Of a DNA stretch of 28,105 nucleotides, positions 2,573 to 27,960 are shown piece after piece; position 1 is the stretch's first letter; each line of letters starts with the position of its first letter. This DNA comes from a virus. Position numbers and translations under genes: made by a program. The notes under the pieces are model-generated. The model did no database searches, was not told the DNA's origin, and worked only from the letters and a program-made list of their open reading frames with translations. The stretch lies in the IMG/VR virus record IMGVR_UViG_3300020472_000134, positions 1-28,105 of that record. One strand, 5' to 3'.

Positions 2573-3010
2573 TTAATTTTGTTGAACTCTATTTGATATA
2601 TCTATCAATGCTTTAAAATATGTTTTTTCCTCATCTTCTTCTTCACTATAACTAACACCATTTAATACACTTGTATATACATTGAAATTTTGACTTGTTA
2701 GATCAAAGAAATCAGTTGTTGATGTTTTTATTAATCCAAGAATCGTATTTACTATTGAATTACATTGTAATTCCCCACCACTATCTGCAAAGAAAGATGT
2801 AACTACTTCAATTCTTGTAATACACTCGTAAATAAAATCTGTTTGATTAGGTGTTACACCTGCAGTTTCTACAGAGTAAACTATAATATAAGGTTCATCT
2901 TGTGTTGATGGCACTCTATTATAAACAGGTACATTTGATCCACCATAACTAACATTTCCATTTAGAAGTGTATATATTTTTTGTCTTATATAATGTATTG
3001 GTTCTTTCAT
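2573..3010 (-). CDS. Tail terminator / tail completion protein (DUF3168-like)
   Basis: A 145-residue protein opening [20 protein letters not shown] with [20 protein letters not shown], then a central [16 protein letters not shown] strand and a C-terminal [14 protein letters not shown] strand. This is the pattern of tail-completion proteins that cap the tail tube at the head side: an N-terminal helix, the phrase V-Y-x-x-V-P-x-x-x-x-x-P-Y-I, and alternating beta strands. It follows the gp10-like gene with an ATGA overlap, the expected order connector, closure, gp10, terminator. The next expected gene, the major tail protein, is not adjacent but near the other end of the window. Confidence 0.7.
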
Positions 3011-3360
3011 CTTAAAGCTCTATTTATTGCATTGTTTAAATCTGACATTAACCTTACTAAACCTAAATTTATTTTACCAAAAAAGAATGGTTGTGCTTTC
3101 ATAAATCTTGTACCAAATTCAAGAAATCCTGAATATTCTGCTTGTGATATTATCGCTTTTTGAAATTTATCATAAATAACATTTCTTCTTAAATTTCCTG
3201 TATCAACAGGAATTGGTGGCTTTTTAATATCTCTTACAATATTTAGACCTGCTCTATCTAAAAGTGTATAAGCACTACCGTTAGTTTTTGTAATAGCATC
3301 CAATTCTGCCATTTTTCGTTCTAATTTTCGTAGATCAGATTGATTGACTTTTATGCTCAT
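3007..3360 (-). CDS. HK97 gp10-like minor tail / neck protein
   Basis: A 117-residue protein with the family hallmark [10 protein letters not shown] at about residues 51-60, followed by [20 protein letters not shown] (about 74-93). In the HK97 gp10 family these mark the conserved fold thought to join head-tail connector proteins to the tail. An N-terminal helix [16 protein letters not shown] also fits. It is coupled on both sides: its ATG shares one base with the upstream stop (TAATG) and its TGA overlaps the tail terminator ATG. Family assignment is firm; the exact virion position is inferred from gene order. Confidence 0.85.
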
Positions 3361-3686
3361 TACTCCCTTTTAGTTGCTTCTATTGTTGTGTAATATTTAT
3401 AATTACTATCAAACATTTTATTTATCTGGAAAAAACCAGTTGTATTTTCAATTTGTAATAAGTCAGTTATATTTAAAGTATCAGCAGTTTTTTTTCTTAT
3501 TATAACCTCTACTTTTAAGTTTCTATCTTTTTTACCATTTTTACTTGTAATATCTCCATTTATATAATCAACTTTTGCCCATATAGTAGATTGTGTAGCT
3601 ACTGTATCTGTAAATCCACCGAATCCATCAGCAGATTTAGTTTGCCTTTTTATCAACACTCTTTTATTTAATTTTCCTGCGTTCAT
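3360..3686 (-). CDS. Head closure / head-tail adaptor protein (SPP1 gp16-like)
   Basis: A 108-residue protein beginning [20 protein letters not shown] with GFGGFTDT and [13 protein letters not shown]. This matches the head-tail adaptor family, whose members start G-x-L-x-x-R-V-x-I-x-R and carry a D-G-x-G-G motif. It continues with beta strands ending TTIEATKRE. These proteins close the portal channel and present the surface for tail joining. It lies 8 bases after the connector gene and is coupled by TAATG to the gp10-like gene. Confidence 0.85.
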
Positions 3687-3694
3687 TATATATT

Positions 3695-4240
3695 TTATAT
3701 AAATGGTGTTTTATGAGAACTTAATATTGTTTTGACCTCTATTGGTAAATCACTTACAGTAGCACCTACAACAAAATCAGCTCTATTATCATATAGTGTT
3801 GATATTAATTGCAAGTTTGCAGCATATAACAAACTATCACTCATTCCTGCTGTTGTGTAATTAACAATCACTTCTTCTGATGGTAAGTCGCCAAGTTCTA
3901 TAATCGTATCATCAAGACCGTATGTTGTATAATCAGTTGTTGCAGTTCCATCAATAGTTATACTTTGAATTGAAGCTATTGGCGAAAAAGGTAATACAAA
4001 TCTTTCATCTACAGTCGATAAATACAATGATCTTGTTTTTGCTACTATATCTTTACTTATATAGTTCTCAATTATAATTCTTGCCTCTGTTACTATTTGA
4101 CCTATTAGTGTATCATCAGCAGTTGTATCAACTCTCATATAATCTTTTGCATTAGATGTTGTAACAATCTCACTACCTGTTGTAGAATTGATTTTTATTT
4201 GTGTATGAAACCTGTTTAATGGATTACTATAATATGTCAT
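3695..4240 (-). CDS. Head-tail connector protein (gp6/gp15-like)
   Basis: A 181-residue protein that begins with about 25 residues of leader and then shows SNAKDYMRVDTTADDTLIGQIVTEARIIIENYI, the DDxxI helix of the gp6-like connector family. The middle (LPFSPIASIQSITIDGTATT) is the P-I-x-S-I-x-S-I element also seen in this family, and the C-terminus forms helices (YAANLQLISTLYDNR, LPIEVKTILSSH). These proteins form a ring under the portal. Its ATG overlaps the TGA of the preceding 50-aa gene (ATGA), and closure, gp10 and terminator genes follow in the canonical order. Confidence 0.85.
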   Translation of the reverse strand: MTYYSNPLNRFHTQIKINSTTGSEIVTTSNAKDYMRVDTTADDTLIGQIVTEARIIIENYISKDIVAKTRSLYLSTVDERFVLPFSPIASIQSITIDGTATTDYTTYGLDDTIIELGDLPSEEVIVNYTTAGMSDSLLYAANLQLISTLYDNRADFVVGATVSDLPIEVKTILSSHKTPFI

Positions 4241-4389
4241 AATTTTAAATCTTTTGTTTCTCGCTTATATGCTTGTTTTAATTCTTTAGTTTCTTTTTTT
4301 CTTTTATCTTCTTTTAAATGTTTCATTTCAGCTCTATCTGAAATTTCTTGAATAGCATCTTTAAAAAACTTTATTATTCGTATTAACAT
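4237..4389 (-). CDS. Small lysine/glutamate-rich coiled-coil protein, 50 aa
   Basis: A short frame starting MLIRIIKFFKDAIQEISDRA and then almost wholly charged (KHLKEDKRKKETKELKQAYK), which predicts one long helix. It ends in an ATGA overlap with the connector gene, so it is part of the head-tail joining operon, and it starts four bases after a perfect TAnnTTTG box that itself directly follows a terminator. This makes it the probable first gene of a new late transcript. No family is recognised. A scaffold-like or assembly role would fit the position, but nothing in the sequence proves it. Confidence 0.65.
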   Translation of the reverse strand: MLIRIIKFFKDAIQEISDRAEMKHLKEDKRKKETKELKQAYKRETKDLKL

Positions 4390-4393
4390 ATAA

Positions 4394-4401
4394 CAAAAAT
4401 A
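4394..4401 (-). promoter_or_regulatory. TAnnTTTG box exactly 4 nt before an ATG (gene 4237-4389)
   Basis: Minus-strand TATTTTTG, then TTAT, then ATG. It lies directly after the T-tract of the terminator at 4403-4436, so a new transcript could begin at or beside the start codon. No convincing -33 TTG is present. Confidence 0.55.
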
Positions 4402-4402
4402 C

Positions 4403-4436
4403 AAAAAAAAAGCACCATAAAATTTACAGTGCTTTT
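4403..4436 (-). terminator. Rho-independent terminator after the PD-(D/E)XK gene
   Basis: On the minus strand the stem AAAAGCAC / GTGCTTTT (4429-4436 with 4408-4415) encloses a 13-base loop and continues into an uninterrupted run of nine T. It lies 27 bases after the stop of the gene at 4464-4823 and ends transcription of the accessory island before the connector operon. Confidence 0.8.
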
Positions 4437-4463
4437 GGTTGAAAAGAATAAAGAAAGAAAAAA

Positions 4464-4823
4464 CTATTTGAAGTCAAAGTTATTAAAAAATTTTGAATTT
4501 GAATTGTCCATACTTAACCTAATACTTTGTTGACCAACATTTTTGAAAATAAAGAATCCTTTATATAGATCTACCCATACTGCAAAATAATCAACATCAC
4601 CTGGTGAATAGACAATATGCCAATTTGCTTGTACTGTACTGCGATTCTTTTCTTTTGCTTTTCCTGTGGACTTTATTTGAACTCTATATATGTCTTTTCC
4701 TGTATCTGCAAGACAATCATAAACACAAGCATCTAATATAGGAAAGGAAACTATAATGCCTCTTTTTAAGCACTCTACACCGAATGAATATTCGGCAACA
4801 CAACCTCGTGTATTTACATCCAC
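4464..4823 (-). CDS. PD-(D/E)XK endonuclease-like protein, 119 aa
   Basis: A compact nuclease-like protein. Residues 7-20 (GCVAEYSFGVECLK) give the helix with Glu11, YDCLAD gives Asp36, and YRVQIKSTG gives the Q-x-K motif (Gln49, Lys51). The E...D...QxK order and the following VDYFAVWVDLYKGFFIF strands match the PD-(D/E)XK type found in Hjc-like resolvases and some intron-associated endonucleases. The start is GTG at 4823, with no in-frame ATG nearby, and a near-consensus TAACTTTA box lies just upstream. It sits between two terminators, so it can be expressed alone. Substrate unknown: a resolvase, a free-standing homing or host-nicking enzyme, or a counter-defence nuclease are all possible. 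Confidence 0.75.
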   Translation of the reverse strand: MDVNTRGCVAEYSFGVECLKRGIIVSFPILDACVYDCLADTGKDIYRVQIKSTGKAKEKNRSTVQANWHIVYSPGDVDYFAVWVDLYKGFFIFKNVGQQSIRLSMDNSNSKFFNNFDFK

Positions 4824-4828
4824 GATTG

Positions 4829-4836
4829 TAAAGTTA
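4829..4836 (-). promoter_or_regulatory. Degenerate TAnnTTT(G) box before the nuclease gene
   Basis: Minus-strand TAACTTTA, then five bases, then GTG. It differs from the perfect boxes by its last base and by one base of spacing, but it occupies the same place: directly after a terminator T-tract and just before a start codon. Confidence 0.35.
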
Positions 4837-4868
4837 AAAAAAAGTGGCTAAACTTAATTAACCACTTT
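4836..4868 (-). terminator. Rho-independent terminator between the small-gene operon and the nuclease gene
   Basis: The minus-strand stem AAAGTGGTTAA / TTAGCCACTTT contains one G-U pair, has a 6-base loop (4852-4857), and is followed by a T run. It separates the small coupled genes (4921-5413) from the nuclease gene. A second small perfect hairpin TACACT-TTT-AGTGTA lies nearer the stop at 4921 but lacks a T-tract immediately after it. Confidence 0.75.
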
Positions 4869-4920
4869 CAAACTAACTAATCACTATGAAAAACACAATT
4901 ACACTAAAAGTGTAAATATC

Positions 4921-5100
4921 TTAAATATTTTGCTCTAATTCATCTATCTCATAAACCTTTTTCATAATTTCATAATAGTTATCAGAATTTATTTTTTCTT
5001 TTTTATTTATCAATTTAGCATTTATAAGTTTTAAAATACTTGTTACAAGTGATGTTGGCTTGTATCTTTTAAATTCAATATTTTCTTCAGGTTTTTCCAT
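4921..5100 (-). CDS. Small hypothetical protein, 59 aa, third gene of the island operon
   Basis: The start MEKPEENIEFKRYKP at 5100 is chosen because its ATG shares one base with the TAA of the preceding gene (TAATG); the in-frame ATG 27 bases upstream would lie inside that gene. The product is charged and helical, with SLVTSILKLINAKLIN as an amphipathic helix and an acidic C-terminus (YEIDELEQNI). It has no membrane span and no recognised motif. It is cotranscribed with two small membrane proteins, so a cytoplasmic partner of them is a reasonable guess, nothing more. Confidence 0.6.
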   Translation of the reverse strand: MEKPEENIEFKRYKPTSLVTSILKLINAKLINKKEKINSDNYYEIMKKVYEIDELEQNI

Positions 5101-5309
5101 TATGCTATTAAATAAATAAATGCCCAAAATAGATCTGTAAACATTTGTGCAATACCATCTGCATAGTAAAATAAAAAGTTAATTATCATAATTAACCAAA
5201 ATGTACCTAATCCTAATCCCCAACATATATACTTGACAATTCTTCTTGTATATTCATAATCAGTATTCATATTGAGGTCTCGTTTTGTTGCTTTATATAC
5301 TACTTTCAT
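5100..5309 (-). CDS. Small membrane protein, 69 aa, two hydrophobic segments
   Basis: The start MKVVYKATKRDLN at 5309 is fixed by a TAATG overlap with the 34-aa gene upstream; a longer in-frame start at 5366 would overlap that gene by nearly 60 bases. After a basic N-terminus come a long hydrophobic segment (ICWGLGLGTFWLIMIINFLF, about residues 28-47) and a second one at the C-terminus (MFTDLFWAFIYLIA). It therefore looks like an inner-membrane hairpin. Such small membrane proteins in accessory islands are often superinfection-exclusion or lysis-timing factors, but no family is recognised here. Confidence 0.65.
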   Translation of the reverse strand: MKVVYKATKRDLNMNTDYEYTRRIVKYICWGLGLGTFWLIMIINFLFYYADGIAQMFTDLFWAFIYLIA

Positions 5310-5413
5310 TAGTGAGTTATTATACAAATTAATGTGTGTATTGAAAAATAAATTGCTGCAAACCAAATAATTGGCATTTGCAATTTTTCTATGATTCTTA
5401 TTATTTTTTCCAT
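5309..5413 (-). CDS. Single-span membrane microprotein, 34 aa
   Basis: A short frame MEKIIRIIEKLQMPIIW followed by FAAIYFSIHTLICIITH. An amphipathic N-terminal helix leads into one hydrophobic span reaching the C-terminus. Support for its reality comes from position: it is the first gene after a consensus promoter (5513-5542), its ATG is preceded by an A-rich stretch typical of Bacteroidetes ribosome sites, and its TAA shares a base with the ATG of the next gene (TAATG). The same TAATG linkage is repeated at the next junction. Function unknown. Confidence 0.6.
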   Translation of the reverse strand: MEKIIRIIEKLQMPIIWFAAIYFSIHTLICIITH

Positions 5414-5596
5414 TTTTTAATTAATTTTAAAGTTAACACCCAAACCCTCGCACTACAGCTAATAAGCCAGATCTTTGATATTGAGAGTTTAGGTATAACT
5501 ATTTTCATTAGACAAAAGTAATTAAATCATTGATAAAAACAAAAAATTCTTTAAAAAAGATAATTTATTTAATATTTATTACTATATTAGGGTATT
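5414..5596. promoter_or_regulatory. Divergent control region between the minus-strand small-gene operon and the plus-strand gene
   Basis: This is the only divergent intergenic region in the window. On the minus strand it holds a strong promoter (5513-5542) and about 90 bases of leader containing a G-rich stretch (GAGGGTTTGGGTGTTAAC). On the plus strand it should hold the promoter of the 54-aa gene, but I find no clean TAnnTTTG there. No RNA family is recognised in the leader. Confidence 0.5.
5513..5542 (-). promoter_or_regulatory. Bacteroidetes-type promoter driving the small-gene operon
   Basis: The minus strand shows TTG (5540-5542), exactly 19 bases, then TACTTTTG (5513-5520). This matches both halves of the known Bacteroidetes consensus (TTG, 19-21 bases, TAnnTTTG) and is the best complete promoter in the window. 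Transcription should begin near 5506, giving a leader of about 90 bases. Confidence 0.75.
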
Positions 5597-5761
5597 ATGT
5601 TAGATCAAAATAAAAAAAGAAAATTCGCATTATTCAGAAATGAGAGTTGGACTTCTTTTACAGCTTGGTGGTTTACAGGTTATGGAACTAAGCAACAAAT
5701 ACACTCAAAGAAGTTTGATAATCATAAAGAAGCTGAACAGTGGATAGAGGATAATAAATAA
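5597..5761 (+). CDS. Only plus-strand gene: small aromatic, basic protein, 54 aa
   Basis: A 55-codon frame beginning MLDQNKKRKFALFRNESW and ending FDNHKEAEQWIEDNK. The middle is unusually aromatic (FTAWWFTGYG, with four Trp in all). It is preceded at a sensible distance by AGGG, one of few Shine-Dalgarno-like sequences here, and followed directly by a GC-rich hairpin shared with the capsid gene. The layout (divergent promoter region, convergent terminator) is that of a real gene. The final F-x-x-x-x-E-A-x-x-W pattern resembles the end of small beta-alpha domains, but no family can be named. A regulator or a moron factor are both possible. Confidence 0.6.
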   Translation: MLDQNKKRKFALFRNESWTSFTAWWFTGYGTKQQIHSKKFDNHKEAEQWIEDNK

Positions 5762-5784
5762 AAAAAGGGGCATAAAGCCCCTTT
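5761..5784. terminator. Bidirectional terminator between the capsid gene and the plus-strand gene
   Basis: Perfect stem GGGGC / GCCCC around a 5-base loop (5772-5776). On the minus strand it is followed by seven T, making a strong stop for the capsid transcript. On the plus strand it is followed by TTTAATT, a weaker stop for the 54-aa gene. Confidence 0.85.
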
Positions 5785-5810
5785 AATTATATATACTCTA
5801 AATCTTATGA

Positions 5811-7019
5811 TTATAGAGCTGCTATTACTGTAGCGAAATCTCCTCTACAAAAAGCATTTGGTAAATAAGTAGTGAAAGCGATTCTTTCTTGAACTCTAAC
5901 TGTGATAAAGTTCTTTTGAACATTATCAGAATCTTGGTCAAAAAATTCAACACTTACATTTTCTCTTACCCATAGTTGAGCTCCTTGAGAGAAGTTACCA
6001 ACTATAAACTCACCTTGTGCCATAGAAGTATTAATCATTACAGGAATACCCATAAATGTTGGCTGAAGTCCTTGATAAACTTGGTCTTTCAGATATCTGT
6101 TGTCAGAATCTTTAAGAGCAAGGATCTTGTGGAAATCAGTAGGATGTAGAAGTATGTAATCACATCTGTAGTTTTGTTTTGCAACTTGGTTTACAGCAGT
6201 AATTAATACATCAAACTCTTGTGGGTTTGCGAAATCAGCAGCACCAAAACCTGATGCACCAGTACTCCAAATAGTACCTGTATTTCTCAAACCGTGTAAA
6301 TTAGGTGCAGCACCATTTCCTCCAAGTAACTGGTCATCTTCTACTGTTAAAAGTTTAGCAGGAACTCTTGCAGAAATATAAGAACTTAATTGTTCTGTAT
6401 CTTCAAGCATTTGTCTTGATAATCTTAAATAAGTACCGATTGTTTCAACATTAGCTGTTGAAGCAGTTAAGTTAAAGTCAGTTTGCCCTAATGCACTACC
6501 CTCTGAAGTTGCAGCAGCACCCTCTGTGTAAGCTGATTCTGTTACATATCTAATAAGATCAGAGTTAGTTGTTCCAATAGGAAGCATCTGTCTTATATGA
6601 ACAGGAGTAGTAGGATCATATTTAATACCTGGAGCTCTTGTAGCAGCGATTACCTCGCCAGTATAGTCAGCACCAGTTGTCATATCGGCTTTAATTTCAA
6701 ATGCTGCTGCTCTTGAATTACCTTTTTTAAGGTTGTCAATAGCACCACCATCAATCGCTGATTTTAAAGCTGATTTAAAAGTAGCAGGTGCAGTAGCTTT
6801 TGCTTCAAGTTTTTTACTTGAAACTTCAATACTATCTAATCTCTTTTGCACTTCTTCGTGCTTTGTTGAGATTTGTTCAGTTAAGTTGTCTATTTCACCT
6901 TTTAGTGATTCAGAAACTTCACCTTTAGCATTATCTTTAGCCGACACCATTGCTTTTTCGATTTTAGAATCAACCAAATCTCCGAGTTGGTCTAATTCCT
7001 TTTTCGTTTCATCTGTCAT
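5811..7019 (-). CDS. Major capsid protein, HK97 fold
   Basis: A 402-residue protein of the HK97 phage capsid family. Residues 1-75 are a charged coiled coil (LDQLGDLVDSKIEKAM, LTEQISTKHEEVQKRLD), equivalent to the delta domain that serves as an internal scaffold and is removed by the prohead protease; the cut probably falls near residues 95-112. The mature part shows the conserved phrases VETIGTYLRLSRQMLED, CDYILLHPTDFHKI and FMGIPVMINTSM. It follows the protease gene by 5 bases and is closed by a strong terminator. A high-level late product is expected. Confidence 0.95.
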   Translation of the reverse strand: MTDETKKELDQLGDLVDSKIEKAMVSAKDNAKGEVSESLKGEIDNLTEQISTKHEEVQKRLDSIEVSSKKLEAKATAPATFKSALKSAIDGGAIDNLKKGNSRAAAFEIKADMTTGADYTGEVIAATRAPGIKYDPTTPVHIRQMLPIGTTNSDLIRYVTESAYTEGAAATSEGSALGQTDFNLTASTANVETIGTYLRLSRQMLEDTEQLSSYISARVPAKLLTVEDDQLLGGNGAAPNLHGLRNTGTIWSTGASGFGAADFANPQEFDVLITAVNQVAKQNYRCDYILLHPTDFHKILALKDSDNRYLKDQVYQGLQPTFMGIPVMINTSMAQGEFIVGNFSQGAQLWVRENVSVEFFDQDSDNVQKNFITVRVQERIAFTTYLPNAFCRGDFATVIAAL

Positions 7020-10316: not shown

Positions 10317-11507
10317 TTAAATTACAAAAAAGTTTTCTCGCTTTCCAAAATGGGAATAAACAGCATAACGAATAGAATCCATTGTATGATTTTCTTTGTC
10401 TTGTGGTTTATTTATTATCGTTCCATCTTTTAATTGTTCCCAATAATAACTATGATATTCATTAATAATATTCTTTGATTCATTACTAACAATTATATCA
10501 TATTCTTTTAATTTTGATATTCCAGAGTTTATAGATCCTTGACCTTTTACTGCAGGTTTAATATAAAGACCTAATCTTCGCATTTCTTCTATTGATTTAG
10601 GTTCTGCAGAATCGCCATAACACAAAACTTCTCCATAACCTTTTTCTTTAAGGTAATCTACAATATCCGAATTAGTCATTGACTTACGATATAATATTTC
10701 GTGAATATATATTTTATCGTTCTTTTTATTGACAAGAACACAAGCTGTAGGATCATTAGAATATCCATAGTCAATTCCTATTACAGATTCCATTTCCAGG
10801 TCAAACTCTGGGAAATCTTTATAATCTATAAATTCCCAATTATTAAATACTTGTCTTGCACTAAATATAGCTTTTAAACCCTCTCCGTAAACCCTCCAAT
10901 AATCTATATCTCTTTTTTTCATTCTTTCAATCTCATTTACCAGGTCTTGCGACAAGAACTTATTATCCTTATATGTTGTTATCCAGGTATCGCAATCTTT
11001 TCTTGGTATTAGGTCGCTATATATCCAATGTATAGGATCAGATGGGTTAAAATCAAGAATTACCATATCTATTGTTCTCATATTGATTTGTCTAAAATCC
11101 TCAATATTAAGCTCATTACCCTCATTTAAAAAAGCTATATGCCTTTTACGACCACGAATCTTTTGTGGTTCATCAACTGATAGAAACTCAATTAAATGTC
11201 CATTATAGCTAAAAGTGTTTTCAGCTTTGTTATGAACTCCTAAAAAATAAATACCTGTGTCCTGGAGAATTAGCATTATATCTCTTAATACAGAACCTTT
11301 AAGTGCAGGTAATGTCTTACGAACAATAGAGATAGTTAAAGGTTTCTCTGATGTTGTAAGTAAATAAACAAGGTATTGACAAACAGCTACTGTTTTTCCT
11401 GATCTTGTTCCTCCTTGATGGACTTTGAATCTTTTTTCTGATTTGATAAGGTCGTAGAATTGTCTGTTGCATCTTTGCTCAACTTTTCTTCTTGTGGTGG
11501 TTTCCAT
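10317..11507 (-). CDS. terL: Terminase large subunit (TerL, PBSX/Terminase_3 type)
   Basis: A 396-residue packaging ATPase-nuclease. Walker A is GGTRSGKT at residues 32-39 and Walker B lies in HIAFLNEGNEL (about 122-132). The nuclease half shows GIDYGYSNDPTACVLV, CYGDSAEPKSIEEMRRLG and NHTMDSIRYAVY, which carry the acidic metal ligands. The start cannot be later because Walker A is so near the N-terminus. As a result the first 40 codons are read over the last 40 codons of the small subunit in another frame, a 121-base overlap that includes Walker A. Portal follows after 32 bases. The family points to headful or cos packaging but does not decide it. Confidence 0.93.
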   Translation of the reverse strand: METTTRRKVEQRCNRQFYDLIKSEKRFKVHQGGTRSGKTVAVCQYLVYLLTTSEKPLTISIVRKTLPALKGSVLRDIMLILQDTGIYFLGVHNKAENTFSYNGHLIEFLSVDEPQKIRGRKRHIAFLNEGNELNIEDFRQINMRTIDMVILDFNPSDPIHWIYSDLIPRKDCDTWITTYKDNKFLSQDLVNEIERMKKRDIDYWRVYGEGLKAIFSARQVFNNWEFIDYKDFPEFDLEMESVIGIDYGYSNDPTACVLVNKKNDKIYIHEILYRKSMTNSDIVDYLKEKGYGEVLCYGDSAEPKSIEEMRRLGLYIKPAVKGQGSINSGISKLKEYDIIVSNESKNIINEYHSYYWEQLKDGTIINKPQDKENHTMDSIRYAVYSHFGKRENFFVI

Positions 11508-11851
11508 TCTATAAGTGTTGATTTAATTGATCCATCGTGTTGGATTTCTTGTCGTTCAATATAACCTCTTTTTTTCCCTTTTGTTTTTAGTAGGAATATT
11601 GTAGCAGTTGTATTGCCCTCACTAATTTGCTTATGAAGTTGTGATTCTGCGAAATCTAAAGCGATATTTTCAATGTCTTTTACCTTTTTAGCAAATTCTT
11701 CATCTTCTTTTAGATATTGATAAAAAGTAGTTCTACCCACTTTAGCAATCTTACAAGCACTTGTAACAACTCCTAATGATTTTTCTAAAGCAGTGAGCAA
11801 TGCTTTTTTAGTATGTTCTTTTTTGTTTGTTTTCACTTTACAAAAGTACAT
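11387..11851 (-). CDS. terS: Terminase small subunit (TerS)
   Basis: DNA-recognition subunit of the packaging motor. Residues about 15-60 form the helix-turn-helix (LTALEKSLGVVTSACKIAKV, then GRTTFYQYLKEDEEFAKKV), followed by helices for oligomerisation (LDFAESQLHKQISEG, TIFLLKTKGKKRGY). The last 40 residues are charged and low-complexity and lie over the TerL start. The ATG at 11851 directly abuts a terminator T-run and has no room for a leader. A GTG at 11836, giving a protein that begins (M)KTNKKEHTKKALL, stands exactly four bases after a perfect TACTTTTG box and is a strong alternative start. Confidence 0.85.
   Translation of the reverse strand: MYFCKVKTNKKEHTKKALLTALEKSLGVVTSACKIAKVGRTTFYQYLKEDEEFAKKVKDIENIALDFAESQLHKQISEGNTTATIFLLKTKGKKRGYIERQEIQHDGSIKSTLIEWKPPQEEKLSKDATDNSTTLSNQKKDSKSIKEEQDQEKQ
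11841..11848 (-). promoter_or_regulatory. TAnnTTTG box exactly 4 nt before the alternative TerS start (GTG 11836)
   Basis: Minus-strand TACTTTTG, TAAA, GTG. It lies between the terminator T-run and the GTG. A TTG occurs 16 bases upstream inside the hairpin, shorter than the usual 19. If it acts as a promoter, a transcript would start at or near the GTG and exclude the ATG at 11851. Confidence 0.5.
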
Positions 11852-11876
11852 AAAAAAAACCCACCAAATAGGTGGG
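11852..11876 (-). terminator. Rho-independent terminator before the packaging genes
   Basis: Minus-strand CCCACC / GGTGGG stem with loop TATTT and a run of eight T. It ends the transcript of the gene at 11903-12397, separating the small replication-side genes from the packaging and head operon. Confidence 0.9.
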
Positions 11877-11902
11877 CTTGATTTTAAAACAATGATTTAG
11901 GA

Positions 11903-12397
11903 TTATTTTTCTAATTTTTCAATAAGTGCTATTTGTTTTGGAGATAAATTTTCAATCCATTTAGGTTCTTTCCTAATCCACTCATTAAAGTATTTTTTAT
12001 TTAAACTTGTTTTATTCCAAGTTAAACCAGTTTGATCAGCAAGAGAATATATAATTCCTAAACTCCACACTTTATCTTTCAATGCAATTAATCTTTTAGA
12101 TTGCTCTACCCATTTCGGATACCAACTATCTTTTAGATTGTTAAATCTAATTCTTTCTTCTTGAATTTCTTTTTGAATTTCTTGTAAATTATTTTCATAG
12201 TCATCAAAATTAAAAACATTATCGTTGGTAAATTTATCTTTTTCCCAATCAGGTATTGATTTTATTGACTTGTTAAATTTTTCAACACACACAGGTCCAT
12301 ATATTTTACCACCAACAATATATTGGTTTTTAATATATCTCCCACATCTTGAACATTTTTTCATTTTATTAATTTTTAATATTTCTAATTCTTCCAT
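11903..12397 (-). CDS. Zinc-ribbon-like protein, 164 aa (DUF6011-like N-terminus)
   Basis: Near the N-terminus is a compact metal-binding motif, MKKCSRCGRYIKN...GPVC, with Cys15, Cys18 and a later Cys, resembling the C-x-x-C-G-R-x-I ... G-P-V-C pattern of small phage zinc-ribbon domains. The rest is helical and charged (LQEIQKEIQEERIRFNNLKD) with Trp-rich patches (DSWYPKWVEQ, KYFNEWIRKEPKWIENL). No catalytic motif is seen. An internal ATG at 12364 (MKKCSRCGR) is a possible alternative start with a better A-rich ribosome site. It is the last gene before the terminator at 11852-11876, at the boundary between replication and packaging genes. Confidence 0.7.
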   Translation of the reverse strand: MEELEILKINKMKKCSRCGRYIKNQYIVGGKIYGPVCVEKFNKSIKSIPDWEKDKFTNDNVFNFDDYENNLQEIQKEIQEERIRFNNLKDSWYPKWVEQSKRLIALKDKVWSLGIIYSLADQTGLTWNKTSLNKKYFNEWIRKEPKWIENLSPKQIALIEKLEK

Positions 12398-12407
12398 TTT
12401 AATTATT

Positions 12408-12563
12408 TTAAGTTAGTTTTTGTTTTTCAGATTCTTCTTTAGCTTTAAATAATTTTGATTCTAAAGGAGTAAGTGGTGAATTATTATCTATTGAATCTAC
12501 AAATGCTCTATATAGTGTTTGTACTTCTTTATATGTTAATTCTAATTTTATTTTATCTTCCAT
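12408..12563 (-). CDS. Small hypothetical protein, 51 aa
   Basis: A short frame starting MEDKIKLELTYKEVQTLYRA and ending SKLFKAKEESEKQKLT. It has predicted strand-helix-helix character, is acidic-basic mixed and lacks membrane segments. The opening K-I-x-L-x-L-T-x-x-E-V-x-x-L is a common design in small phage proteins of Bacteroidetes and probably forms a beta strand plus helix. It lies ten bases before the gene at 11903-12397 and starts downstream of an AT-rich palindromic gap. Function unknown. Confidence 0.6.
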   Translation of the reverse strand: MEDKIKLELTYKEVQTLYRAFVDSIDNNSPLTPLESKLFKAKEESEKQKLT

Positions 12564-15808: not shown

Positions 15809-16483
15809 TTATATGTCTGCATTGTGAGAATTTTTACTGAAGTAATCTTCAATGACCTGTATGACTTTATCATAATCATTTAGCCAATGACACTCCCAAT
15901 TCTCTTTCTTTAATTTTTCAATAGATTCTAATTGATTTTCTGTTGGCTTATTATAACCAACTTTTAATTCAATAGCAAGACCATTCTTTTCACCGTTTGA
16001 TCTAAATATCATAATATCTGGAACTCCTGCTCTACCACCTAAATATTTAAACTTAAATCTTTCAAATGGACTTCGCTTACCCTCATTCGGAATATGAATT
16101 GCATAAACATCTGGGTATTGAAATTTCATATATTCCATTACACTATGTTGAAGTTTATCTTCTTTTCCTAAATATTTTTCAAAAGGGTTTGCCAAATTCT
16201 CAATATTACTTAAACAAATATTCTTTAAAGTTAAATAATTATTTTGTATGGTTTTGTCATAAGTTAATAACAATTCCAAAGTTTTAATACCGTGAACGAC
16301 AGAGGCGTGGTTTAATCCGACAGATCTGCCGATTCTATCACAAGTAATTCCTGATATTAATTGTCTGCTTAATGTAAAGTAAATAAATCGTGCATCAACA
16401 TATTCTCTTTTCCTATTTTTATCTCTAATTTCTAACTCAAAATATTTATTTACATATCCTCGTATTAGTGCTAAATCTTTCAT
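15809..16483 (-). CDS. DnaA-domain-IV-like / VRR-NUC nuclease fusion
   Basis: A 224-residue two-part protein. Residues about 28-92 (DARFIYFTLSRQL, GITCDRIGRSVGLNHASVVH, GIKTLELLL) match the helix-turn-helix of DnaA domain IV, whose signature is G-R-x-x-x-x-x-H-x-x-V-x-H. Residues about 111-212 form a VRR-NUC nuclease: Glu117, GVPDIMIF (Asp156), LAIELKVG (Glu172, Lys174) and PTENQ (Gln184). VRR-NUC enzymes cut branched or flap DNA. The fusion suggests a nuclease steered to DnaA-box-like or other specific sites, in origin processing or recombination intermediates. Both halves are clear by eye; the joint function is inference. It lies between the exonuclease and the HTH initiator. Confidence 0.8.
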   Translation of the reverse strand: MKDLALIRGYVNKYFELEIRDKNRKREYVDARFIYFTLSRQLISGITCDRIGRSVGLNHASVVHGIKTLELLLTYDKTIQNNYLTLKNICLSNIENLANPFEKYLGKEDKLQHSVMEYMKFQYPDVYAIHIPNEGKRSPFERFKFKYLGGRAGVPDIMIFRSNGEKNGLAIELKVGYNKPTENQLESIEKLKKENWECHWLNDYDKVIQVIEDYFSKNSHNADI

Positions 16484-20080: not shown

Positions 20081-20088
20081 CAAAATTA
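20081..20088 (-). promoter_or_regulatory. TAnnTTTG box exactly 4 nt before the 424-aa tail gene
   Basis: Minus-strand TAATTTTG, TTGT, ATG. The first three bases are also the TAA stop of the sialyltransferase-like gene. Full -7 match; no clear -33. Confidence 0.55.
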
Positions 20089-20583
20089 ACTAATTATATT
20101 TACATTTAAGGACTTGATAATTTCATATTCTTTTTGAGGATTATGCAATTTTCCCCTAACTTCTGAATCTCCGTAATGATGTTTTTTTGTACCCCACCAA
20201 TCAAAACCAATAATATCAACATTGCAATCAAAATAATATATAGCTATAAGTCCTGTTGATGGAAACCCAAGTGGTATTTTTTTTAAAACATTTTTATCTA
20301 CTTTTTCGACATCAGGTCTTTGTTCTCTTAATTCTTTATACATTTTACATTTATCTTTGTCTGCCCAAGAATGAACTACAACTTTATCAAAAGTGTTTAT
20401 TTTATCAAAATGATGCCTGTTTACAGTAAACCAAACATTTGTTCTATTGCCAACAAATCTTTCATATCCATTTAATTTAAAACTATTAAATCTAACTATT
20501 ATAGAATAAGTGTTTATTATATTTGAATATTCTTTATCTAATAAACTCGTTCCATTTCCAACTAACAAAATTTTATTTTTCAA
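20086..20583 (-). CDS. Sialyltransferase-like glycosyltransferase (GT29-type motifs)
   Basis: A 165-residue protein with all the sialyl motifs in order: VGNGTSLL (8-15) and IVRFNSFKLNGYERFVGNRT (L-motif), GFPSTGLIAIYYF (106-118, S-motif), GFDWW (126-130), and H-N-P-Q-K-E (His147 to Glu152), the H-x4-E of motif VS. GT29 enzymes move sialic acid or a related sugar from a CMP donor to a glycan. It starts with TTG in a TTGA overlap with the preceding glycosyltransferase stop; no ATG could be used without losing the first motif. The protein is short for the family but the motif set is complete. Likely targets are host glycans, or glycosylated tail proteins encoded next door (inference). Confidence 0.8.
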   Translation of the reverse strand: MKNKILLVGNGTSLLDKEYSNIINTYSIIVRFNSFKLNGYERFVGNRTNVWFTVNRHHFDKINTFDKVVVHSWADKDKCKMYKELREQRPDVEKVDKNVLKKIPLGFPSTGLIAIYYFDCNVDIIGFDWWGTKKHHYGDSEVRGKLHNPQKEYEIIKSLNVNIIS

Positions 20584-21482
20584 AGTGCTTCAATTAATAG
20601 TTGATAATAATTATAAGATGACTTGTTAATATTAATGTCTAAATTTTTAGGTGGCACTTCTGAAAGCCAATTACCTTTATAAAAAAGTTTGTTTTTTGTA
20701 TTAGTAACTCCTGCATTATGAAAAATAGCTTTTCTTGTCCAAAACTCTTTAGGATCTGTCGCCCAAATAAAATCCATTTCTTTAATAATTTTTGTTTGTT
20801 TTTTTTCTATCCATAAATTCCAAAGGACTGCCCACATATCAGCACACCAAATTTGAAGTTCGTGATAATTTTCATCTAACACTTTTAGTTTTTTATTCAT
20901 CTGATGAATATTTTTATAAAGCTGAACACAATCTTTTTCTACATTTTCCCAAAATTTATAATCTATGTTTTTTAATAAATATTGAGCCCCACCACTATTT
21001 TCTTCATTATCTTTTACTGTTTTTTTATCAAGATCAAAACAATGTAACATTCTATCTAAAACAGCTTCACCTTTTGATACTATATAATTATACCCAATAT
21101 AGCTTTTTGTGTCGCTTAAATAACAAATTTCATCATCTAAATACTGTTCTATATTTAATGGTCTTGTAAGTGCAATATCGCAATCGTGATATAAAAAAGC
21201 ACCTTTATATAGTTCTGGAAACTTTACAAAATGTTTTTTTAATATATGAGGTCTTATGCTTGAAACATAAAATTTATCTTCTCTTGTGTCAGGGTAATAG
21301 TAAAAATTAACATCTTTATATTTATCTTTTAGCTTATTATAGTAGTTACAATTTTCATTATTATCAGCTAATATTATATCTATTTGGTCTTGTTTTACCC
21401 CATTATTAATAAATGAATAAATCATTATATCTATTTGCCAAGCATAATAAAGTATTGCAGGTTGAGCTGAAATATATCTCAT
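20580..21482 (-). CDS. GT-A type glycosyltransferase, 300 aa
   Basis: A 300-residue protein opening MRYISAQPAILYYAWQIDIM, with IDIILADNNENCNYY and VNFYYYPDTRED forming the alternating strands of a nucleotide-sugar domain. The metal-binding DxD is at YHDCDIAL (Asp100, Asp102). Downstream come YIGYNYIVSKGEAVLDRML, the acceptor-side helix WCADMWAVLWNLWIEKK and FHNAGV near the end, a pattern like GT8- or GT77-type enzymes. It overlaps the sialyltransferase-like gene by four bases, so the two are made together and probably act in sequence on one acceptor. It follows the large tail protein after 9 bases. Confidence 0.75.
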   Translation of the reverse strand: MRYISAQPAILYYAWQIDIMIYSFINNGVKQDQIDIILADNNENCNYYNKLKDKYKDVNFYYYPDTREDKFYVSSIRPHILKKHFVKFPELYKGAFLYHDCDIALTRPLNIEQYLDDEICYLSDTKSYIGYNYIVSKGEAVLDRMLHCFDLDKKTVKDNEENSGGAQYLLKNIDYKFWENVEKDCVQLYKNIHQMNKKLKVLDENYHELQIWCADMWAVLWNLWIEKKQTKIIKEMDFIWATDPKEFWTRKAIFHNAGVTNTKNKLFYKGNWLSEVPPKNLDININKSSYNYYQLLIEAL

Positions 21483-24212: not shown

Positions 24213-26206
24213 TACTTAAATCTGTTTCTGTTTCTTTCAGCTCTTTGTAGTGCAACAACTAAATCTTGACCTCTTAAAACAAACTCTCCTTGCATTGCAC
24301 CACCACCAATCATTGATTTTAATTTTGATAAAGGTGCTACCACCTCTGGATTACTTCTTGCACCTGGATATTCGCCAATTAATGCAGTTGTAGGTCCTGA
24401 TACAATACCACCACTTGCCATTTTTTTAAATCCTTTTTCCTGAACCGAAGATGCTATAGCTTTTATTAATGTACCTAATGTAAATGCTGCTAATCCTGCA
24501 GCGAAACCTACACCAGGTATAGCAAAGGTTTTAGCTAATTCTGATGCTGCCATTGCTGCCATACCCATTTGAATCAATAAATCTCCTATAACACCTAACA
24601 TTGCCATTGCAAAACTTTCAAAACTTCCACTTGCATTTGTAAAAGCACCTGATAAGGAATTTGCAAAACCTGTTAGGAAAGGTGTCATTAAATCTATATT
24701 ACCTTTTACTGATTCAGAAACTGAAGAAAAATCAGCATCAGCATTAACTTTAAAATCAGTAATTTTTGTTGTTAAATCATTCATATACATTGTAAAGCCG
24801 TTGATATGATTTGACATTTTTGGCAATTCTTTATCTATAACACCTGATAAGGTCGTAAACCCTGTACCCATCATAAATGGATTTATTCCTAAAAATCCAC
24901 CACCCATTGCAGAATCTCCTAAAAGTGTTGTTCCTGAATCACCTCCTGTATCTCCTGGTGGTGTTGATGTCGGAAATTGTGTTTCTCTTGTACCTGTAAA
25001 AGTAAGTGGATCTGCAAATGCTAAAGATGGTATGTCAATTATTTTTTGAGTTGTTTTATCTATTGTTCTTTGTAATTCATCTAATTCATTTCTTGCATCA
25101 ATAGAACTTTGAATTAATGGTGAAAATATTTGTGATGGTGCTAATTGAGTTTTACCCAATGTTTTTAAAATATCTCTTAATTTTATATTAAAACTATCCA
25201 TTATTCCAATAATGGCAGTAAGACCTATAACCCACGGATTAAATCTACCAAATACACTTTTTAATGATTTGCCAACTTTTCCAATCCACCTCCAAAAACT
25301 TGCGAAAGCACCTATAGCTATTGCTAAAAGACCTCCTTTAGCTACTAAAGAACTTAAATTAAACATTGCTTCTTTTGTAGAACTATCTAAATTTTTAAAT
25401 GCTGTTGTTGCTTTTTTAATTTCTTGTGTAAGTTTTGGAATACCGTTTTTTAAATCTAAAATATCAACTATTTCTTGACCAAGTTCTGCAAGTGCTATAT
25501 TAACATTATCTTTTAAAGTTGAGAATAATCCACTAATAGTTGTACTTAATGTTTCCATACCATTATGGAATTTACCACCCTCACTTGTGGCATCTTTAAA
25601 TGCTTGATTTAAAATATCAAAGGTTATCTTACCCTCTGAAGCCATATCCATTATTTCACCCCTTGCAACCCCCATAGAAGTAGCTAAAATGTCTAATATC
25701 GGCACTCCATTATTAATAAACTGTCGTAGGTCTCGTGTCATAACCCTACCCTCTGCTGCAGCTTGACCAAAAGCAATTCCTATTCCTTGTAAATCACCAC
25801 CAACAATTCCTGAAATATCACCAAGCATTGACAAACTATCAAATGCTTCATTTGAAGATAAACCAAATCCCATTAACATATTATTGACATCTACAAGTTG
25901 ATCTAATTGAAATGGTGTCTTTGCACTAAACTCAACTAATTTTTCAAAAGCAGCAGCACCCTCTTCTGCAGATCCTGTTAAAGTGTTTAATTTTATTCTT
26001 AATGTTTCAAATTTTGCAGCTTGTTTTACTGCAACACCACCTGCTAATGCTAATGGTGCAGTAAATCTCATTGTAATATCTCTACCAACAGCCCCTATAT
26101 CTCTTGCAAACGAATTTAATTTTCCCTTTGCTCTACCAATTTTTTGATTGAACTTATCAGTATTTGCAATAAAATCTACTCGTAATTTATTATTAAAATC
26201 TGCCAT
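24212..26206 (-). CDS. Tail tape measure protein
   Basis: A 664-residue protein. The N-terminal part carries the tape measure domain: NSFARDIGAVGRDITMRFTA, QAAKFETLRIKLNTLTGSAE, LVEFSAKTPFQLDQL, AAAEGRVMTRDLRQFINNG and MASEGKITFDILNQAF. It is followed by hydrophobic helices (LAIAIGAFASFWRWIG, WVIGLTAIIGIMDSF and an Ala/Gly-rich stretch near 560-610) that may insert in the host membrane. It sets tail length; with the usual rule of about 0.15 nm per residue the tail would be about 100 nm or less. Its ATG stands four bases after a TATTTTTG box, and its stop overlaps the large tail gene start (TAATG). Confidence 0.93.
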   Translation of the reverse strand: MADFNNKLRVDFIANTDKFNQKIGRAKGKLNSFARDIGAVGRDITMRFTAPLALAGGVAVKQAAKFETLRIKLNTLTGSAEEGAAAFEKLVEFSAKTPFQLDQLVDVNNMLMGFGLSSNEAFDSLSMLGDISGIVGGDLQGIGIAFGQAAAEGRVMTRDLRQFINNGVPILDILATSMGVARGEIMDMASEGKITFDILNQAFKDATSEGGKFHNGMETLSTTISGLFSTLKDNVNIALAELGQEIVDILDLKNGIPKLTQEIKKATTAFKNLDSSTKEAMFNLSSLVAKGGLLAIAIGAFASFWRWIGKVGKSLKSVFGRFNPWVIGLTAIIGIMDSFNIKLRDILKTLGKTQLAPSQIFSPLIQSSIDARNELDELQRTIDKTTQKIIDIPSLAFADPLTFTGTRETQFPTSTPPGDTGGDSGTTLLGDSAMGGGFLGINPFMMGTGFTTLSGVIDKELPKMSNHINGFTMYMNDLTTKITDFKVNADADFSSVSESVKGNIDLMTPFLTGFANSLSGAFTNASGSFESFAMAMLGVIGDLLIQMGMAAMAASELAKTFAIPGVGFAAGLAAFTLGTLIKAIASSVQEKGFKKMASGGIVSGPTTALIGEYPGARSNPEVVAPLSKLKSMIGGGAMQGEFVLRGQDLVVALQRAERNRNRFK

Positions 26207-27499: not shown

Positions 27500-27647
27500 T
27501 TTTTTGTTTTTTTATAAGTTCGTAAATTTTTATTAAAGTATAAATAATTGTAACCAAAACCAACACTAATTGTGCCAAATCGTTAAGTTCTGCCATTGAA
27601 ATTAACAAAACAAAGACACCTAATACTGTTGGTTCAAAGCTATTCAT
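27483..27647 (-). CDS. Small membrane protein, 54 aa
   Basis: The start MNSFEPTVLGVFVLLISMAE at 27647 is preferred because its ATG overlaps the stop of the thioredoxin-like gene by 8 bases in an A-rich context; an ATG at 27668 would add seven residues. Two hydrophobic segments (TVLGVFVLLISMAEL and LAQLVLVLVTIIYTLIKIY) are followed by a charged cytoplasmic tail (KKQKNEKDN). The layout is that of a small holin-like or spanin-supporting membrane protein, but a holin is already present at 1588-2043. Coupled to an exported protein upstream and a cationic peptide downstream. Confidence 0.65.
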   Translation of the reverse strand: MNSFEPTVLGVFVLLISMAELNDLAQLVLVLVTIIYTLIKIYELIKKQKNEKDN

Positions 27648-27960
27648 TTTTATACTTATTGATTTCATTTTGTATTTCTTCTAATCTAACTCCTATCTTC
27701 ATTGTAAGCCCTCCCTCGTAAGTTTTAACAGGTTTTCCATCTTTATAGATAACTATGGTCGGAACACTTTTAATAGATGATTTAAGTGCAGCTGATTGGT
27801 CCTCTACAAAAGCATATTGCACCTTTGCATTTCTTAATCTATCAAGACCTTTATATTTATTGCTTGAATTCCATTTATAATTAAAATGAACAAGTGTAAT
27901 GTCTTGACCATAACTAACCATACTAAATAATAATGCTAATACTAAAAATAAAGTTCTCAT
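27640..27960 (-). CDS. Exported thioredoxin-fold protein lacking the active-site cysteines
   Basis: A 106-residue protein. Residues 1-18 are a signal peptide (MRTLFLVLALLFSMVSYG, with cleavage before QD). The rest is a short thioredoxin fold: ITLVHFNYKWNSSNKY, then VQYAFVEDQ and SIKSVPTIVIYKDGKPVKTY with cis-Pro67. Where thioredoxin has W-C-G-P-C this protein has W-N-S-S-N (residues 30-34), and there is no Cys in the whole sequence, so it cannot be a redox enzyme. It is probably a binding or chaperone-like protein in the periplasm or envelope. Its ATG overlaps the TGA of the preceding gene (ATGA). Confidence 0.75.
   Translation of the reverse strand: MRTLFLVLALLFSMVSYGQDITLVHFNYKWNSSNKYKGLDRLRNAKVQYAFVEDQSAALKSSIKSVPTIVIYKDGKPVKTYEGGLTMKIGVRLEEIQNEINKYKNE

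Follow-up and report, generated by a model that had tools for sequence, protein, structure and literature searches.

Gene content of the capsid-connector interval

The DNA analysed here (the window, meaning the whole stretch) is a linear virus record of 28.1 kb, whose major genes all lie on the (-) strand in the order terminase, portal, MuF-like, protease, capsid, the block under study, connector, and the tail and lysis genes. None of the isolated phages is close to it at the DNA level, and its nearest cultured relatives by portal protein (32%) are Cellulophaga phages which, together with the style of its promoters, point to a probable host among the marine Flavobacteriia. The block is bordered upstream by the major capsid protein (MCP) gene (5811-7019, (-) strand; Pfam PF05065, 1.6e-37) and downstream by a head-tail connector gene (3695-4240(-); PF05135, 1e-5; PHROG 442, 2e-13), which is preceded by an ORF call for a basic 50-aa product (4237-4389(-), ATG at 4389). 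These matches confirm the identities that an earlier sequence-only reading had given to the two border genes, and the ORF coordinates, the TAATG overlaps and the three terminators of that reading, at both borders and before the nuclease (5764-5784, 4840-4869 and 4408-4436), were all recovered. Its premise that capsid and connector genes are normally adjacent holds for Cellulophaga phage phi12:1 (70 nt apart), but neither for the family of the window, where the interval spans 1.2-3.4 kb, nor for Flavobacterium phage 11b (1.7 kb).

Beside the capsid gene, an intrinsic terminator active in both directions by prediction (5764-5784, both strands), with a hairpin identical in the relatives L003 and L004, would serve both the capsid gene and a convergent ORF of 54 aa (5597-5761(+)). 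This ORF is found whole only in the window and in one near-copy, L004 (96%), with a single partial match of 19 aa elsewhere (L171), and is cleanly absent from L003, whose capsid protein is identical to that of the window. When phage pairs whose capsid genes match by 93% or more at the 3' end are grouped into bands of increasing capsid identity, the MCP-proximal stretch (capsid to nuclease) shows identity medians of 0.71, 0.78 and 0.93, whereas the nuclease and connector medians of the same pairs stay near that of the capsid. Hypervariability is thus confined to the stretch adjoining the capsid gene, and it is this stretch, not the whole block, that behaves like a moron or cargo. Such a slot would gain and lose small genes, the 54-aa plus-strand ORF being its occupant in this phage. 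Further variable slots lie at 11905-12554 and 24924-25448, where the window cannot be aligned to G002, the contig of its close relative L003, with neighbouring sequence mostly 90-98% identical.

The slot would be followed by a promoter-driven mini-operon of tiny membrane proteins, of conserved architecture. Its predicted Bacteroidetes sigma-A promoter (TTTG-N19-TACTTTTG, 5513-5543(-)) had been regarded as the best complete promoter of the window and is indeed the sole exact Bacteroidetes -33/-7 match in it, but shuffled sequences give 2.5 on average, so that the match alone is not above chance; the support comes from the conservation of the promoter, together with a leader of about 100 nt, in two close relatives (L003 and L004). 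Matches to sigma-70-type promoters are at background (24 vs 19.3 +/- 4.9). The leader (5414-5512(-)) has a 56-nt core identical in L003 and L004 and was not found in more distant relatives. Joined by TAATG overlaps, the genes of the mini-operon encode a single-TM protein of 34 aa (5309-5413(-); family in 8 loci), a membrane protein of 69 aa, 51 aa in most relatives (5100-5309(-); family in 36 distinct intervals), and a soluble product of 59 aa (4921-5100(-); family in 47 distinct intervals), and their pN/pS values of 0.20, 0.35 and 0.36, respectively, mark the three ORFs as real genes. As previously noted from the letters, none of them has a family match (Pfam, PHROG), which leaves the nuclease fold as the only known one among the products of the block.

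In 99 of 104 intervals, the nuclease has tiny co-directional membrane ORFs upstream of it, of at least two kinds in 75, and their pN/pS values across relatives are mostly 0.2-0.6. The families vary by subclade: the 34-aa and 51/69-aa proteins are found near the window, and elsewhere there are other single-TM proteins and TM proteins of about 50 aa, unrelated single-TM ORFs taking the position of the 34-aa gene in other relatives. They are often accompanied by a small soluble ORF, and an ORF with a CxxC...CxxC motif is present in 33 intervals. L003 retains the promoter and leader of the window and has a homolog of its 59-aa ORF, and the 34- and 69-aa genes are swapped there for unrelated ORFs. 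As a guess, these membrane proteins may act in exclusion, in superinfection or on the host membrane.

The mini-operon ends in an intrinsic terminator directly upstream of the nuclease gene (4840-4869(-)), and another lies downstream of the nuclease (4408-4436(-)), with similar hairpins after this gene in relatives. Five terminator-like sites were counted in 3.6 kb, as compared to 0.9 +/- 1.0 in shuffles, and, of 108 distinct loci, 100 have a terminator in the 80 nt that precede the nuclease, as against 0-11 when shuffled. The T-run of the pre-nuclease terminator runs into a TAHHTT element, TAACTTTA (4829-4836(-)), the predicted -7 element of a near-leaderless nuclease promoter, and a second such element, TATTTTTG (4394-4401(-)), would make transcription begin on the start codon (ATG at 4389) of the small ORF that follows. 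Both were placed by the register of the -7 box of Flavobacterium johnsoniae, which has T-12, A-11, T-8, T-7, T-6 and G-5 relative to the transcription start (PMC6847099). When the nuclease start codon is taken as the reference point, 94 of 140 loci have the element in near-leaderless register (A-11, T-8 and T-7, with no G at -10/-9), and displacing it by 1-4 nt leaves 29, 4, 0 and 0, which predicts a leaderless or near-leaderless nuclease transcript; the match is degenerate, its last base being A, not G, in most loci, and the window's own element lies one base further out than this register. Leaderless mRNAs make up 5.5% in F. psychrophilum (PMC9723704). The independent transcription that had been proposed for the block is in this way supported as a prediction.

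A sub-threshold match to FopS (RF04319), a Bacteroidetes sRNA family, covers 4834-4896(-), where GTGTTTTTCATAGT.ATTA precedes the terminator; its E is 0.057 in 2.4 kb and 0.004 in 171 bases. With 30.4 bits against a gathering threshold of 56, and not being reproduced in L003 or L078, it is no more than a lead to an sRNA; a FopS motif has been reported in a Caudovirales phage (PMC11697453). Among relatives, 48 of 144 distinct upstream regions (140 nt before the nuclease) contain the motif TTTTTCAT, as compared to about 4.5 in Markov shuffles, and it typically precedes the terminator.

A nuclease of the I-Ssp6803I family

The nuclease gene (4464-4823(-)), whose GTG start codon at 4823 was picked by alignment, matches the Pfam family PF11645 (PDDEXK_5) at 4e-11, with 43.5 bits against a curated cut-off of 26.1. 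A profile of the nuclease family searched against the PDB finds only I-Ssp6803I (2OST) below an E of 0.001, at 2e-8, and an AlphaFold2 model of the protein (pLDDT 91) has 2OST as its top Foldseek match (E 5e-8, TM 0.81), ahead of all others. The next structural neighbours are SPARDA and Hjc-type nucleases, archaeal Hjc resolvases among them with a TM of about 0.5-0.6; there is no sequence match to the resolvases in the PDB, and their TM stays behind that of I-Ssp6803I, which argues against an Hjc-like Holliday-junction resolvase. The catalytic residues E11, D36, Q49 and K51 are retained in 143-144 of 144 distinct nuclease proteins, and the D and QxK align to 2OST, with the motif-I E facing a Q in the 2OST chain. 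By sequence and modelled fold, the protein is a member of the I-Ssp6803I homing-endonuclease family, which refines the more general PD-(D/E)XK assignment of the sequence-only reading. As judged from its residues the enzyme would be catalytically intact, and cleavage is predicted.

The best match in the viral library is a protein of an uncultured marine virus, 44% identical, and no relative turned up when bacterial and archaeal genome contigs were scanned with the profile of the nuclease. The gene is free-standing and sits between intact genes, and no intron family is found among the Rfam matches at E<=1 in the region 3600-6000. I-Ssp6803I also appears in the reference list of the paper on the Hna defence system. 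Elsewhere in the window, an ORF at 15809-16483(-) fuses a DnaA C-terminal DNA-binding domain (PF08299) to a VRR-NUC nuclease domain (PF08774), and two ORFs amid the tail genes (20086-21482(-)), the 300-aa one of which belongs to PHROG 4417 (unknown function), resemble sugar-transfer enzymes as judged by eye.

Fixation, allele replacement and a second phage lineage

A first capsid-based scan of viral contigs gave 68 relatives, and the nuclease was found between the end of the capsid gene and the start of the connector gene in all 57 loci containing both, a few of which came from a nuclease-based scan. Two more capsid scans, seeded from distant members, enlarged the sample, so that the nuclease is present in 98 of 98 distinct intervals of this main family sampled by capsid alone, with no empty site among them, and in 152 of 152 when loci found via the nuclease are included. 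It is single copy in 8 of 8 genomes. The median dN/dS of the nuclease (about 0.17) compares with 0.10 for the MCP and 0.09 for the connector, and its distances correlate with those of the MCP (0.69) as MCP distances do with those of the connector (0.70), all loci being metagenomic contigs, many of them fragments, and the pairs non-independent. Universal presence, the dN/dS value and distances that follow those of the capsid make the nuclease a core gene in the main family.

These results change the picture of an accessory moron island that had been drawn for the whole block. The predicted promoter and terminators of its own, the small membrane proteins, the nuclease and the variable MCP-proximal part with the 54-aa gene all stand; however, sporadic presence is seen only for the 54-aa gene and the slot that holds it. 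When the interval is compared among relatives, as had been recommended, the nuclease is always present and the membrane ORFs are nearly always so, and the block as a moron is therefore rejected for both. The earlier reading had itself named the same genes at this place in all relatives, as essential virion components, as the result that would count against it, and the first half of this is largely what is observed, a role in the virion forming no part of it.

Allele replacement was looked at in 53 close pairs of the main family, whose capsid and connector segments share 95% identity or more. In 10 of them, which reduce to about six independent lineages, the nuclease body falls below 90% identity, down to 67%, between flanks of 90-100% (60 nt on each side of the nuclease gene, and the final 30 nt of the gene itself), as in window/L003 (86%), L077/L102 (67%), L078/L112 (71%) and L181/L182 (73%). 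No such replacement is found in the neighbouring control genes, either the protease (0/39) or the second adaptor gene (0/45), so that gene-conversion-like exchange is centred on the nuclease gene. In L077/L102 the divergence extends across most of the nuclease ORF, with flanks at 97-100%, and most of the diversification between alleles lies mid-protein. Overall, the distances of the nuclease follow those of the head genes, so that such swaps are frequent but not dominant. In L080, inverted nuclease fragments (4046-4114(-) and 4330-4440(+)) at the end of a short contig are probably an assembly artefact.

A phage of another kind, G001, which has no homolog of the window's capsid or connector and a portal in a different PHROG, carries a nuclease 61-63% identical, adjoining its holin gene. 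The presence of this relative in such a phage leads us to reject the nuclease as a part specific to the window's capsid. Five loci of the G001 type form one supported clade in the nuclease tree, sister to that of the window; the tree has few columns and several long branches, which leaves the date and direction of transfer between the lineages unsure. Sampled via the ERF gene and not via the nuclease, this second lineage has an occupied site in L298, L300-L302, L333, L336 and L337 and an empty one, with the neighbouring genes visible on both sides, in L299, L303-L311, L334 and L335. In the subgroup L333-L337, whose flanks are nearly identical, the insert runs from the terminator hairpin to the nuclease stop, and thus comprises terminator, promoter and ORF. 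Occupied and empty sites with conserved flanks are found in the second lineage, the 98 capsid-connector intervals of the main family having no empty one. An allele pair is seen here too, L333/L336, with the middle of the nuclease gene down to 30% nucleotide identity and flanks at 93-100%. In G001 (L085), a Mom-like protein (2588-3256; PF25680, 5e-43) directly follows the nuclease, and L310 has a Mom gene at that site without a nuclease. A small thioredoxin-like ORF with a signal-peptide-like start is common to the window (27640-27960(-)) and the G001 lineage (L085, 318-635).

Candidate roles and known systems

Clean insertion of the gene and overwriting of alleles over short tracts are best explained by a homing-type enzyme that acts in co-infections, and we consider it fairly probable that the block is a composite one in which a free-standing homing-type endonuclease has become fixed, its alleles competing in co-infected cells. 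The nuclease gene, insulated by terminators on both sides, would have a transcript to itself, probably a leaderless one. During co-infection, the enzyme would cut the corresponding region of a rival genome with another allele or none, and the break would either block the rival or be repaired from the donor, whose nuclease allele would thereby overwrite that of the rival. Every member of the family would in this way keep an allele, and alleles would replace one another at one address. In this model, the promoters, the leaderless start, cleavage, its target and timing, the link to competition and the role of the membrane proteins are inferred. Empty sites and decay would be expected if the homing gene were purely selfish, and both are lacking in the 98 intervals of the main family, so that some benefit to the phage has to be assumed; fixation there suggests that carrying an allele is beneficial. 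Other points that sit uneasily with this explanation are the lack of a group I intron, unlike I-Ssp6803I, the motif-I glutamate that aligns with a glutamine in 2OST, and the fact that ordinary homologous recombination with diversifying selection could replace alleles without any action of the enzyme. A related possibility, which we put forward only tentatively, is an obligatory nuclease, constantly re-alleled at a single address in the head module, so that co-infecting relatives would contend allele against allele. Recombination at its conserved ends (terminator-promoter on one side, C-terminus on the other) would switch its specificity, in the manner in which recognition domains are exchanged in restriction systems, with the membrane operon and the cargo slot riding along.

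The universality of the gene in the main family, purifying selection on it, its place in the head module and the archaeal Hjc resolvases among its structural neighbours would also suit the main alternative, a DNA-processing nuclease, either branch-resolving (Holliday junctions) or linked to packaging, needed in every infection and used late. However, G001, whose nuclease is closely related, encodes a RusA resolvase as well, the second lineage has members with and without the gene at the same site, and swapping of alleles between intact flanks is unexpected for a housekeeping enzyme; these three observations weaken such a role and, with a VRR-NUC protein and a DUF3799 PDDEXK protein also encoded in the window, make it unlikely. 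Allele diversification mostly in mid-protein, intact catalytic residues and a predicted transcription of its own could likewise be expected if the nuclease degraded or nicked host DNA for takeover and its alleles diversified through host-encoded inhibitors or DNA modification, which we hold to be very improbable, since the nearest characterised relative is a site-specific homing enzyme, and sharply bounded allele tracts together with empty and occupied sites point to mobility. As for the whole block being a moron for superinfection exclusion, host takeover or counter-defence, as first proposed, its own promoter and terminators, the tiny membrane proteins and the hypervariable slot speak in its favour, as does the different set of small genes, a lipoprotein-like ORF among them, that Flavobacterium phage 11b has between capsid and connector; but only the slot adjoining the capsid fits, the nuclease and the membrane operon being present in essentially all relatives, and the proposal now appears rather improbable. 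As far as sequence comparison goes, the data point to a virus-versus-virus weapon rather than to an optional island for host takeover.

Homing endonucleases are usually regarded as sporadic selfish genes. Here, an enzyme of this type seems to be fixed in a large phage family, intact under selection and with alleles overwriting each other between near-identical phages, and the natural pairs of alleles and of empty and occupied sites make the question of the nuclease as a weapon a testable one. Moreover, capsid-connector gaps in phages of this kind show a regular anatomy of cargo slot, membrane mini-operon and insulated nuclease, whose genes are left as hypothetical by annotation pipelines.

The window's nuclease resembles I-Ssp6803I in its Pfam family, its fold and an aligned YD...QxK active-site motif, and differs from it in overall sequence (about 18% identity) and in the motif-I residue, E here and Q in the 2OST chain. 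I-Ssp6803I is a group I intron enzyme, whereas the gene studied here is free-standing and has no intron match. In Flavobacterium phage 11b (NC_006356), the 1.7-kb gap between capsid and connector genes also holds small ORFs, terminator-like hairpins and TAnnTTTG boxes, but it has no nuclease and its small genes are different; in that phage (L090) the stretch 10403-12080 looks like an equivalent of the slot with other contents, one ORF being lipoprotein-like. Homing endonuclease genes are common beside essential phage genes, that of the capsid included (PMC10448857), and the free-standing ones described there likewise adjoin an essential structural gene at a site of observed genetic exchange; they are, however, of the T5orf172 and IPA-HNH types and sporadic, whereas the PD-(D/E)XK enzyme of the window keeps one address throughout its family and undergoes allele replacement. 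The use proposed here, cutting the genome of a co-infecting relative for competitive advantage, is that of the intron endonuclease gp210 of PhiPA3, for which interference competition has been demonstrated experimentally (PMC11620839); gp210 is an intron-encoded HNH enzyme, and the free-standing PD-(D/E)XK nuclease of the window would be its counterpart by inference.
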